Made by a program: the position numbers and the translations under genes. The notes beneath the pieces are model-generated. The model saw nothing but the letters and a program-made list of their open reading frames with translations. It was not told where the DNA came from and did not search any database. From positions 5,553,978 through 5,617,977 of the forward strand of contig NZ_JAHTIK010000001.1 of NCBI RefSeq assembly GCF_025655475.1: 64,000 nt of DNA, written 5' to 3'. This document shows, piece after piece, positions 6,455-11,305 of the stretch. The DNA is from Kitasatospora sp. DSM 101779. Lineage in GTDB: Bacteria > Actinomycetota > Actinomycetes > Streptomycetales > Streptomycetaceae. Every line of letters starts with the position of its first letter. Position 1 is the stretch's first letter.

Positions 6455-6527
<73 letters not shown>

Positions 6528-6630: not shown

Positions 6631-7935
6631 ATGGCCGACCTGGTGCGCAAACGGAACGAAGAGCTCGCCCGGATACTCCACCAGCTCGGGTGGAGCCCCG
6701 AGCGGCTCGCCCGCGAGGTGAACGCCGTTCTGCCCGCCGGCCTGGCGATCAGCGCCACCGCGCCCTACAAGTGGCGAGACCGCGGCATGGTGCCGCGCGC
6801 CCCGCACGACCAGACCGTCTGCGAGGTACTCGGCCGAGCCGTCGGCATCGCCGTCACCTACGAGCAACTGTGGGGCCGCATGGGCAGCGGCCGCGGTGCC
6901 AAGATCCTCTCGCCGCGGCTGCTCACCGACGCCTGGACGGCCGACACCGCGCAGACCGCCCTCCGGGAGGCCGGAGCCGACGCCGCCCCCGTCCGGCTGA
7001 CCGACCTCTTCCGCGGCGACGAACTCGAACAGGCGGCCAGGCACTGGGCCTCCCCGCCGCCCGAGGTCACCGGCGGCGCCGGCGCCCTGCGCATCGCCCC
7101 CGAACAGCTCGCCGACCTCCGGCTCTCCTACGAGAGCAAACGGAGACTGGAACGCGCCTACGGCGGTGGCCTCATCCTCGACCTCGCCAAGGCCGAACTC
7201 GCCATGGTCGGCAAGCTCCTGGAACTCGGCGCCTACGACGAGAAACTCGGCCGCGAACTCTACGGCGCCGCCGGACGGCTCGCCCGGCTGGTCGGTTGGG
7301 CCAACTACGACATGGGCAACGACGCCGCGGCGCAGCGCGCCTTCGTCGCCGCGCTGCGCGCCGCACACGTCTCCGGCGATCCGCGGCTCGGAGTCGGCGT
7401 GGTCGGCTGCCTCGCGGTGCAGGCGACGTACAACTCCGGCGGGCGCGGTCTGGACGCCGTTGCCATGCTCTCCACCGCGCTGCGCGCCGCCGACGAGGTG
7501 CTGACCCCCCGTGAACGGGCGCTGCAACTCGGCCGGATCGCCCGCGCCCACGGTCGCAAGGGCGAACAGATCAGCGCCGAGGCCGTTGCCGAGCGGGCCT
7601 TCCAGGCGCTCGAGGGTGCCGACGACCACGCCCACGAGCGCGCCGACCTCGCCGGCATGGTGGGGGAGATGCACCTCTTCCTCGGGGACTTCGAACGCGC
7701 CCAGCGGATGCTCGGCGAGGCGGTCGCCGCACTGCCGGCCGAGCGTGCCCGGACCAGGGCCCTGCTGATGGTCCGGCTTGCGGAGGCGTACCGGCGGACC
7801 GGAGAGCGCGAGGAGGCTGCCCGTATCGCCGACGAGGCGCGGCTGCTCGCCGCCGGCATGCAGTCCGCCCGGGTGGCGCGGGCGCTGCGTGCCTTCGATG
7901 CGGCCGTGCGGGAGGAGGTACCGCTCGCGGGGTGA
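6631..7935 (+). CDS. HTH protein with TPR-like repeats (NsdA-like)
   Basis: A 434-residue protein. Residues about 5-75 look like a helix-turn-helix module (RKRNEELARILHQLGWSPERLAREVN, then a KWRDRG segment). Residues about 170-430 are helical repeats (LGRIARAHGRKGEQ, GDFERAQRMLGEAV, LAEAYRRTGEREEAARIADEA) typical of TPR arrays in Streptomyces developmental regulators such as NsdA. ATG lies 6 nt after TACGGT with no Shine-Dalgarno, so it is probably leaderless. The gene sits alone between tRNA-Ala and the leuS leader. It probably regulates transcription or acts as an adaptor; targets are unknown. Confidence 0.7.
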   Translation: MADLVRKRNEELARILHQLGWSPERLAREVNAVLPAGLAISATAPYKWRDRGMVPRAPHDQTVCEVLGRAVGIAVTYEQLWGRMGSGRGAKILSPRLLTDAWTADTAQTALREAGADAAPVRLTDLFRGDELEQAARHWASPPPEVTGGAGALRIAPEQLADLRLSYESKRRLERAYGGGLILDLAKAELAMVGKLLELGAYDEKLGRELYGAAGRLARLVGWANYDMGNDAAAQRAFVAALRAAHVSGDPRLGVGVVGCLAVQATYNSGGRGLDAVAMLSTALRAADEVLTPRERALQLGRIARAHGRKGEQISAEAVAERAFQALEGADDHAHERADLAGMVGEMHLFLGDFERAQRMLGEAVAALPAERARTRALLMVRLAEAYRRTGEREEAARIADEARLLAAGMQSARVARALRAFDAAVREEVPLAG

Positions 7936-8095: not shown

Positions 8096-8251
8096 TGCGG
8101 TGTGCCCCTGCCTGGTGTGTGTCCCGGCCGGTGGTGGGCCCTGTGAACGGACCGACCTGCGCACGGTGTGCCCGGGCCCGCGGCTGCCTGCCGGCGGCCC
8201 ACGGGTGGAATGTCCGGCAGGGCGTACGGGCCGTTGCGGTACCCTGACCCC

Positions 8252-8290
8252 ATGCGAACCGTGCGCCTGCTCCTTAGCCGGCCGCGCTGA
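8252..8290 (+). CDS. leuS leucine leader peptide
   Basis: A 12-residue ORF, MRTVRLLLSRPR, with three consecutive Leu codons (CTG CTC CTT). It lies 130 nt upstream of leuS and directly before a factor-independent terminator. TACCCT at 8240-8245 is a good -10 and places the likely transcription start on the A of the ATG, so the leader peptide would be translated without a ribosome-binding site. This is the arrangement expected of a ribosome-mediated transcription attenuator: leucine or Leu-tRNA shortage stalls the ribosome on the Leu codons and changes RNA folding. Leader peptides of this kind have been predicted ahead of actinobacterial leucine genes. Mechanism not tested. Confidence 0.82.
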   Translation: MRTVRLLLSRPR

Positions 8291-8296
8291 CCAGGA

Positions 8297-8347
8297 CCGG
8301 CCCGAGGCCGGAGTCGGCGTGGCGACCCCTCCTGCGAGGGGTTTTTT
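8297..8347 (+). promoter_or_regulatory. leuS attenuator: pause hairpin and U-tract terminator
   Basis: CCGGCC (8297-8302) pairs with GGCCGG (8306-8311). GGCCGG can alternatively pair with CCGGCC inside the leader ORF (8278-8283). The terminator CCCCTC-CTGC-GAGGGG (8326-8341) is followed by six T residues. GGAGTCG (8310-8316) could pair with CGAC/CTCC (8323-8332) and so sequester the 5' arm of the terminator. The alternative pairings are read directly from the sequence; the switching order is inferred. Confidence 0.8.
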
Positions 8348-8419
8348 GCTTTCCGAGTACGTGCTGTTCCGAGTGTGTGCCGCTGGTTCGCCACTGATGA
8401 CGACGGAGCCCGAAGGACC

Positions 8420-11305
8420 ATGAGCGAGACGACGACCCCTGCTTCCGGCGCGGCCGAGGCCGCTTCCGAGCCCTTCCGCTACGGTGCCGCGCTGGCGGCC
8501 GAGATCGAGTCCCGCTGGCAGGACCTGTGGGAGAAGGAGGGGACGTTCAACGCCCCCAACCCGGTCGGTCCGCTGGCCGAGGGAGCGGGCGGCGACGTCG
8601 CCGCGAAGCCGCACAGCTTCATCATGGACATGTTCCCGTACCCGTCCGGTGCCGGTCTGCACGTGGGCCACCCGCTGGGCTACATCGCCACCGACGTGTA
8701 CGCCCGCTACCAGCGGATGACCGGCCACAACGTGCTGCACACCCTGGGCTACGACGCCTTCGGCCTGCCCGCCGAGCAGCACGCCGTCGCCACCGGCCAG
8801 CACCCCCGGGTGACCACCGAGGCGGCCATCGCCAACATGCGGCGCCAGCTGCGCCGGCTGGGCCTGGGCCACGACTCGCGGCGCTCCATCGCCACGATCG
8901 ACCCGGACTACTACCGCTGGACGCAGTGGATCTTCCTGCAGATCTTCAACTCCTGGTACGACGAGGCGGCCGGCAAGGCGCGCCCGATCGCGGAGCTGGT
9001 CACGCAGTTCGAGTCCGGTGAGCGCGAGGTGCCGGGCGGCCGCGCCTGGTCCGAACTGTCGGTCGTCGAGCGCGACGAGGTGCTGGGCGAGTACCGGCTG
9101 GCCTACGCCAAGGAGGTGCCGGTCAACTGGTGCCCCGGGCTGGGTACCGTGCTGGCGAACGAGGAGGTCACCGCGGACGGCCGCTCCGAGCGCGGCAACT
9201 TCCCGGTCTTCAAGTCCAAGCTGCGCCAGTGGATGATGCGGATCACCGCGTACTCCGACCGTCTGATCGCCGACCTGGACAAGCTGGACTGGCCCGAGGC
9301 GATCAAGCTGCAGCAGCGCAACTGGATCGGCCGCTCCGAGGGCGCCCGGGTCGACTTCGCAGCGCCCGGCGGTGAGGCGATCACCGTGTTCACCACCCGC
9401 CCGGACACCCTGTTCGGTGCCACCTACATGGTGCTGGCACCTGAGCACGGCCTGGTCGACGCGATCGTTCCGGCGGCCTGGCCCGAGGACGTGCCTGCCG
9501 ACTGGACCGGTGGCGCCGCAACCCCGGCCGAGGCCGTCGCGGCCTACCGCGCCGAGGCCGCCGCCAAGTCGGACGTCGAGCGCCAGGTCGACGCCAAGAT
9601 CAAGACCGGTGTCTTCACCGGCGCCTACGCGACCAACCCGGTCAGCGGCGAGCAGGTCCCGGTCTTCATCGCCGACTACGTGCTGATGGGCTACGGCACC
9701 GGCGCGATCATGGCCGTCCCGGCCCACGACCACCGCGACTTCGCCTTCGCCCGCGCGTTCGGTCTGCCGATGCGCTGCGTGGTCGAGCCCACCGACGGAC
9801 GCGGCGAGGACCCGCACACCTGGGACGACGCCTTCGACACCTACGACTCGGTGATCGTCAACTCGGTCCACGACGACCTGTCGCTGAACGGCCTGAGCGT
9901 CGTGGACGCCAAGGCCGCCGTCACCCGCTGGCTGGCCGACCGCGGCATCGGCGAGGGCACCGTCAACTACCGCCTGCGCGACTGGCTGTTCAGCCGCCAG
10001 CGGTACTGGGGAGAGCCCTTCCCGATCGTCTACGACGAGGACGGCGCCATGCATGCGCTGCCCGAGTCGATGCTGCCGGTCGAGGTGCCCGAGGTCGAGG
10101 ACTACTCGCCGCACACCTACGACCCGGACGACGCCGCCTCCACCCCGAAGACCCCGCTGTCCCGCAACGAGGCCTGGGTCGAGGTCGAGCTGGACCTGGG
10201 CGACGGCCCGAAGAAGTACCGCCGCGAGACCAACACCATGCCCAACTGGGCGGGCTCCTGCTGGTACGAGCTGCGCTACATCGACCCGGCCAACTCCGAG
10301 AAGGTCGTCGACCCGGCGAACGAGGCCTACTGGATGGGCCCCACCGCCGACAAGCCGGCCGGCGGCGTGGACCTGTACGTCGGCGGTGCCGAGCACGCGG
10401 TGCTGCACCTGCTGTACGCCCGCTTCTGGCACAAGGTGCTGTTCGACCTGGGCCACGTGTCCTCCGTCGAGCCGTTCCACAAGCTGTTCAACCAGGGCAT
10501 GATCACCGCAGACGTCTACCGCGACGCGCGTGGCTTCCCGGTGCCCGCCGCCGAGGTCGAGGAGCGCGACGGCTCGTACTTCTGGCAGGGCGAGCCGGTC
10601 AAGCGCGAGGCCGGCAAGATGGGCAAGTCCCTGAAGAACGCCGTCGCCCCCGACGAGATCGCCGACGAGTACGGCGCGGACACCCTGCGGCTGTACGAGA
10701 TGTCGATGGGCCCGCTGGACGTCTCCCGCCCGTGGGACACCCGCGCCGTCGTCGGCTCGTACCGCTTCCTGCAGCGGCTGTGGCGCAACGTCGTCTCCGA
10801 GACCACCGGCGAGCTGGTCGTCACGGAGGAGGAGCCGGACGAGGCCACCCTGCGCGCCCTGCACAAGGCGATCGACGGCATCCGTGCGGACATGGCCGGG
10901 CTGCGCTTCAACACGGCCGTGGCCAAGGCGATCGAGCTGAACAACTTCCTGGTGAAGCGCGGCTCCACCCCGCGCAGCGTGGCCGAGCAGATCGTGCTGA
11001 TGGTCGCCCCGCTGGCGCCGCACATCGCCGAGGAGCTGTGGCAGCGCCTGGGCCACCACGAGTCGCTGGCCTTCGCCGACTACCCGGTCGCCGACCCGGC
11101 CTACGTCGTCGACGAGACGGTGACCTGCGTCGTCCAGATCAAGGGCAAGGTCAAGGCCCGTCTGGAGGTCGCGCCGAGCATCACCGACGCCGAGCTGGAG
11201 GCGCTGGCGCTGGCCGACCCGGCCGTGGTGGCCGCGCTGGGCGACGCCCAGGTCCGCAAGGTCATCGCGCGCGCACCGAAGCTGGTGAACATCGTCACCG
11301 GCTGA
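8420..11305 (+). CDS. leuS: Leucyl-tRNA synthetase
   Basis: A 961-residue class Ia aminoacyl-tRNA synthetase that charges tRNA-Leu in the cytoplasm. [16 protein letters not shown] near residue 80 carries the HIGH-type motif. The CP1 editing insertion spans roughly residues 300-560. The KMSKS-type loop appears as KMGKS (about residue 733). The C-terminus ([16 protein letters not shown]...) is complete. The start at 8420 is chosen for GGA six nt upstream; in-frame sequence upstream belongs to the attenuator. Expression is probably controlled by the leucine leader peptide and terminator just upstream. Confidence 0.98.

Follow-up and report, generated by a model that had tools for sequence, protein, structure and literature searches.

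A probable transcription attenuator with a leaderless leucine leader peptide upstream of leuS in Kitasatospora and other actinomycetes

Why should a short reading frame with three consecutive leucine codons, followed by an intrinsic terminator, stand directly before leuS, the gene for leucine--tRNA ligase, and could a ribosome enter that frame at the bare 5' end of the transcript? We asked this of Kitasatospora sp. DSM 101779, in a window (the whole stretch of DNA that was analysed) of 64,000 nucleotides, which is part of a contig from an 8.5 Mb genome. The LeuS of the window scores 878 bits against TIGR00396 leuS_bact (cut-off 548), and the start of its gene was placed at 8420, the first ATG in frame that agrees with the family. 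Upstream of the leader, at 6631-7935, lies a gene for an NsdA-family TPR-like regulatory protein (NF053720).

Anatomy of the leuS leader and its known relatives

A preliminary description of this locus had pointed to a TACCCT followed after 6 nt by a 12-codon ORF at 8252, to three consecutive Leu codons in that ORF, and to a CCCCTC-CTGC-GAGGGG hairpin with six T before leuS. All of these parts are where they were said to be (Table 1). The sequence from 8235 to 8254 reads TGCGG-TACCCT-GACCCC-ATG, with GACCCC as the 6-nt spacer; the Leu codons are CTG CTC CTT; and the terminator is made up of CCCCTC at 8326-8331, the loop CTGC, GAGGGG at 8336-8341 and six T at 8342-8347. The stop codon of the leader ORF, TGA, lies at 8288-8290, and stem 1 overlaps the end of the ORF. 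The same description spoke of overlapping hairpins, which is not what folding gives: the strong stem 1:2 hairpin and the terminator stand side by side, and overlap is confined to weak alternatives. The leader RNA gave a better fold than shuffled copies of it did (z -2.54; 2 of 200 shuffles were equally good), and a terminator scan made two overlapping calls of the 8326-8347 hairpin, against a mean of 0.3 in shuffled sequence. The inner hairpin at 8297-8311 differs in length and sequence among relatives and is missing in some of them.

Table 1. Features of the leuS leader region, in window coordinates
Feature	Position	Strand	Basis or remark
-10 element TACCCT	8240-8245	+	sequence; kept in genus loci
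TGCGG, upstream TG element, no -35 consensus	8235-8239	+	adjoins the -10; locus alignments
Leader ORF, MRTVRLLLSRPR and stop, 12 codons	8252-8290	+	start probably at the transcript 5' end
Control codons CTG CTC CTT	8267-8275	+	CTT at 8273-8275, 5 nt 5' of stem 1
Stem 1 (GCCGCGCTGAC), 5' half of the long leader hairpin	8281-8291	+	pairs with 8313-8323; covariation
CAGGA, candidate antiterminator strand, Kitasatospora-type	8292-8296	+	pairing with 8330-8334 predicted; not conserved in Streptomyces-type leaders
Variable inner hairpin between stems 1 and 2	8297-8311	+	folding
Stem 2 (GTCGGCGTGGC), 3' half of the long hairpin	8313-8323	+	folding; covariation
Stem 2 as candidate competitor for the terminator 5' arm	8313-8323	+	weak support
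Intrinsic terminator CCCCTC-CTGC-GAGGGG-TTTTTT	8326-8347	+	sequence; terminator scan; covariation
leuS, leucine--tRNA ligase, 961 aa	8420-11305	+	TIGR00396

An element of this kind is already known, for leuS itself. Classical attenuators before leuS, with a leader peptide, an antiterminator and a terminator, were predicted in S. avermitilis and S. coelicolor by Seliverstov et al. 2005 (PMC1262725, in excerpt); for leuS, the excerpted text of that paper names only these two Streptomyces, and the word "leaderless" is absent from it. In S. lividans TK24 the peptide LeuL2, MRAVRLLLSEPR followed by a stop codon, lies before leuS and was reported from 5'-end sequencing to be "transcribed leaderless" (PMC8079986, in excerpt). 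The window element is the Kitasatospora-type ortholog of LeuL2. With leuL2, as the excerpted report describes it (PMC8079986), it shares a 12-residue LLL peptide, in all probability a leaderless start, a hairpin with a U-tract, and leuS downstream. The Kitasatospora peptide is MRTVRLLLSRPR instead of MRAVRLLLSEPR, and compared with the Streptomyces loci the terminator loop of the Kitasatospora form is shorter (CTGC, not CTGTGC), and its stop codon is usually followed by CAGGA. With this ortholog in view, the preliminary reading of a leaderless leucine leader followed by a terminator is still the best one. The added remark that a leaderless attenuator peptide is uncommon fared less well: the S. 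lividans reannotation gives eight leader peptides, of which seven are called leaderless (PMC8079986, in excerpt), so that an attenuator ORF of the leaderless type is hardly exceptional among these bacteria.

We found no description of a leuS leader outside Streptomyces in the open-access literature searched. The attenuators of Proteobacteria (the trp, leu and phe operons and pheST) also combine tandem control codons, an intrinsic terminator and a cognate gene, but their ORFs are Shine-Dalgarno-led and lie inside a longer leader, whereas the ORF of the window would start at the end of the RNA. Leaderless polycysteine attenuator ORFs were reportedly found in mycobacteria by Canestrari et al. in 2020; those ORFs and the one described here are both short, probably leaderless in our case, and carry codons for the amino acid that is sensed, which in the mycobacterial case is said to be cysteine.

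Spread of the leader and spacing of its promoter

All 61 genus genomes in the sample, among them that of the window, matched the DNA of 8230-8480, and every one of them keeps the TACCCT, a 6-7 nt spacer, the ATG and a 12-residue LLL peptide. When loci were ranked by LeuS similarity, the leader was present in all of the best 80 of at least 591 named loci (78 by pattern and two, L098 and L125, by eye, with Cys as second codon); nearly all are Streptomyces, and a few are shared with the 61 genomes. R1, a covariance model that was trained on 33 Streptomyces-like leaders and contains the -10, matched 150 of 150 sampled genomes of the family, in 17 of 17 genera. Conservation in all genus and family genomes sampled therefore indicates that the leader is not a chance arrangement. 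Secondary DNA matches near 8277-8313 (E 3e-6 to 1e-3) were set aside as chance GC-rich similarity; nine were fetched, and none had the leader pattern.

Beyond the family, R1 matched 92 of 246 genomes of a class-wide sample, 22 of them in the family, with at least one place before cimA (citramalate synthase) and one before leuC among the matches. Sixty R1 places were fetched, 58 from the class list and two from further family members. A second covariance model, R2, lacks the -10 and start codon; it was trained largely on R1 hits and Streptomyces-like loci, and is thus free of promoter columns but tied to R1's choice of relatives. R2 matched 185 of 394 genomes of the class and, in a sample of the phylum, 13 of 149, figures that include places before cimA; the 185 is not a count of leuS leaders, and 22 of 24 weaker places that were re-examined precede cimA. 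Forty R2 places were fetched, excluding the family and places fetched earlier; one of them (G611) is outside the class. LeuS was found by tblastn behind 96 of the 100 fetched places, the other four being a contig end (L222), two cimA genes (L240, L316) and one leuC (L242). By our tally, the families of the class with a leader before leuS number 25 in addition to that of the window (the re-examination of weaker places contributed one, f8), and G611 carries such a leader as well.

Upstream of the -10, T and G at fixed positions are conserved in the family and common in the class. TGCGG adjoins the -10 in 133 of 138 family loci, and its T and G recur in place in 28 of the 57 class loci from R1 and in 21 of the 39 from R2. 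A -35 match (TTGAC, TTGCC or TTGTC) was seen in the -35 region of just two of the 138 family loci and of none of the 57 R1 class loci or 39 R2 loci; a sigma-70 scan of the leader region, which demands a -35, found no promoter. The leader pattern used for the R1 places (TAnnnT, a spacer of 4-10 nt, ATG or GTG, and a Leu-rich ORF) was matched by 57 of 60, and the spacer was 6 or 7 nt in all 57, with a model that includes the -10. In the R2 places, TAnnnT ends 6 (31 places) or 7 nt (eight places) before an in-frame ATG or GTG in 39 of 40; all other spacings from 0 to 34 nt combined gave six occurrences, and the sole place without the 6-7 nt spacing is a cimA leader. Of the 25 further families, 24 show the spacing, the contig of the remaining one (f10, L225) ending before the promoter, and with the window's own this makes 25 families. 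A leaderless gene should have its -10 element at just this distance, 6-7 nt, from the start codon. Because the -10 sits so close, there would be no room for a Shine-Dalgarno sequence, given the usual distance of transcription starts. Judging by this spacing and by the S. lividans ortholog, RNA polymerase probably begins the transcript with the A of the start codon at 8252.

Control codons, stems and the genes downstream

The position of the control codons relative to stem 1 is fixed. Between the last Leu codon and stem 1 there is a gap of 5 nt in 139 of 141 family rows (the remaining two, misframed by the script, also fit) and in 53 of 57 rows from R1 places, a set in which the leuC leader and two family members are counted. 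A set of 94 class leaders was assembled from 55 of the 60 R1 places (without L225, L240, L242, L245 and L246) and 39 of the 40 R2 places (without L316). In these, the three codons before the 5-nt gap are Leu in 79, 92 and 94 of 94, respectively; in the one closest to stem 1, Leu is encoded by CTT 87 times and by CTC seven times. CTT is a rare codon here, with 12 of 1409 Leu codons (0.85%) in 34 ORFs of the window chosen by composition. One leader (L235) has a single Leu codon at the control position, and that codon is CTT. All 70 Leu codons of leuS itself are CTG, against the rare CTT in its leader.

If a ribosome has the usual footprint, one that holds CTT in the A site would cover the leader RNA to about nt 34. 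With the RNA masked to nt 34, stem 1:2 had a probability of 0.33 in the window leader, and of 0.83 and 0.31 in the two Streptomyces leaders that were folded; with masking extended to nt 36 it was abolished in all three (P 0 to 0.06). With that assumed footprint length, a ribosome on the control codons could cover the 5' half of the leader hairpin.

Both stems covary. In 73 sequences fitted to R1, double changes were seen in 12 of the 18 pairs of stem 1:2 and the terminator, 97.7% of cells pair, and none of 500 shuffles reached any of five covariation measures. A MAFFT alignment of 33 sequences gave double changes in seven of 18 pairs (0 of 500 shuffles), with the number of pair types reached by 18 of 500 shuffles. 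Within the family alone, double changes occur in two of the 11 pairs of stem 1:2, which 14 of 500 shuffles reach. In some lineages the ORF ends right after the Leu codons (LLLT and stop) or is lengthened (GPHRPSRR or GPYRI and stop), and stem 1 is kept. As the tail of the peptide varies while stem 1 persists, it is the RNA, not the peptide tail, that is under selection.

The same leader stands before two types of LeuS. Of the proteins behind the 96 leaders, 37 are at least 55% identical to the N-terminus of the window LeuS, 58 fall below 45%, and one is partial. Identity between the two groups is 29-50% (median 35.8), against within-group medians of 67.4 and 70.3. One genome (G368) has both types, each with a leader of its own (L188 and L219). 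Either the leader outlived replacement of its gene, or paralogs that had the same leader were sorted.

The weaker R2 matches are leaders with Ile codons, such as MPSQVLIIVRRAG followed by a stop codon, before the citramalate synthase gene cimA. We examined 24 of them (L327-L350, of 30 loci returned), of which 22 precede cimA, one precedes leuS and one could not be assigned to a gene; two are places already fetched (L316 is the same place as L327, and L240 the same as L328, leader 1477-1582). The identity of cimA rests on TIGR00977 for one partial protein (331 bits, against a cut-off of 450 for the full length) and on tblastn with that protein for the others. The cimA leaders share the hairpin-plus-terminator plan of the leuS leader. 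A loosened -10, [TC]AnnnT, ends 6-7 nt before an in-frame ATG or GTG in 15 of the 22; the remaining seven were scored without such spacing, two of them being missed with a model start out of frame. Finally, one genome (G332, L242) carries a Leu leader, MRTVLLLLSGRDETSF followed by a stop codon, upstream of leuC, with TAATCT 6 nt before its ATG. The match between codons and gene, with Ile before cimA and Leu before leuC, supports amino-acid-specific sensing.

Attenuation, alternative explanations and meaning

We consider it very probable that leuS is controlled by a ribosome-mediated transcription attenuator with a leaderless leader ORF. Tandem cognate codons (LLL before LeuS) and an intrinsic terminator between ORF and gene, by which attenuators are recognized, are both present, and sequence and comparison show the parts and their spacing, that both stems covary, and that the control codons keep a fixed position. 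In the model that we favour, a ribosome would load directly on the 5' AUG and read the three Leu codons. With ample charged tRNA-Leu it would pass and leave, stem 1 would pair with stem 2, and with 1:2 paired the terminator just downstream would form, so that most transcription would stop near 8347. With charged tRNA-Leu scarce, the ribosome would wait at the rare CTT (8273-8275), the third of these codons. The leading edge of the stalled ribosome would presumably cover about half of stem 1, if the assumed footprint length is right, and the freed stem 2 could then compete for the C-rich 5' arm or the loop of the terminator and let the polymerase read into leuS. A ribosome stalled at the first Leu codon would miss stem 1, and one resting at the stop codon would cover it; the simple model therefore needs a stall at CTT and fast release.

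The competition step is the part of the model for which several candidate pairings were considered, and no conserved antiterminator pairing was established in nascent folds, full-length folds, covariation tests or comparison with random loops. Nascent folds were made for 141 family rows, with nt 1-36 masked and the 3' arm of the terminator not yet made (two rows, L115 and L116, were framed from the wrong ATG in these folds and were corrected in the full-length count). CAGGA x UCCUG had a mean probability of 0.65-0.74 in the 60 Kitasatospora-like rows and about 0.06 in the 81 Streptomyces-like rows, in which GCGCGG x CUGUGC was favoured instead (mean P 0.72-0.78). We rejected CAGGA x UCCUG as a general antiterminator, as it is hardly predicted in Streptomyces-like rows and has no supporting double changes; nor did any double changes support GCGCGG x CUGUGC. 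In the covariation test of stem 2 with the terminator loop there were no double changes, and all 500 shuffles equalled the observed values. Compared with random loops, the same pairing ranked at a median percentile of 0.32 (at or below 0.5 in 55 of 73 sequences and at or below 0.1 in 11 of 73), a modest gain. In full-length equilibrium folds with nt 1-36 masked, 128 of 141 rows kept the terminator at a probability of 0.9 or more, and six had it below 0.5. Since the terminator persists in these folds, any antitermination must be kinetic.

These results bear on a variant that we regard as possible, if rather doubtful, in which leuS is controlled without a 2:3 antiterminator. Stem 1:2 would then be a protector hairpin that mainly aids the folding of the adjacent terminator, and a stalled ribosome would lower termination by removing this help or by keeping the RNA unfolded. 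The covarying stem 1:2 does directly adjoin the terminator, and no single antiterminator pairing is conserved; however, competing pairings appear in nascent, stem-1-masked folds of most family sequences, and classical attenuators use such pairings. It is a good deal less probable that terminator and ORF are real while leucine regulation is weak or absent, the device setting a constant fraction of read-through. The leucine nearest stem 1 in 94 of 94 leaders, mostly as rare CTT, speaks against this, as does the switch to Ile codons before cimA, which would be needless in a constant device. A precedent for it exists in S. coelicolor ilvB, where substitution of the candidate control codons was without effect on regulation (cited in PMC1262725, in excerpt), and the open-access literature searched, in the parts accessible, yielded no data on the leucine response of a leuS leader.

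The remaining alternatives concern the kind of leader and its 5' end. A transcript that begins farther upstream, with an ordinary 5' UTR ahead of the ATG, seems to us highly improbable. The 5' end in this strain is deduced from spacing and orthology, but that spacing holds class-wide and leaves no space for a Shine-Dalgarno sequence at the usual start distance, and the S. lividans ortholog is reported to be leaderless (PMC8079986, in excerpt). To control by a T-box or another known riboswitch we give practically no credence. Most aminoacyl-tRNA synthetase genes of Firmicutes are under T-boxes (PMC1262725, in excerpt), but the conserved core of the leuS leader is an ORF with its control codons, and Rfam has no match there: a search of the whole window at gathering thresholds returned one tRNA (6455-6527) and nothing else, and a search of 8200-8440 gave no match, to a T-box or any other family, at E up to 1.

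What our analysis adds to the attenuator favoured here is its class-wide spread, its conserved leaderless start and its fixed rare codon. We tentatively propose, with confidence that stops somewhat short of even, that one ancient design has been kept before leuS through the radiation of the actinomycete class, with the start on a bare 5' AUG as a conserved working part. This design would stand before two LeuS types of about 36% identity, sense leucine at a rare CTT 5 nt from a hairpin, have been re-coded to Ile before cimA, and may lack a conserved antiterminator. Leaderless starts are often viewed as a by-product of promoter position. The 6-7 nt spacing in 25 families suggests instead that loading of a ribosome on the nascent 5' end helps the switch keep time with the polymerase. 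The fixed distance from CTT to stem 1 would also allow a direct test of where the leading edge of a stalled ribosome lies. As the window leader has no match in Rfam, the leaders of leuS, cimA and leuC across the actinomycetes could be annotated with R1 and R2.
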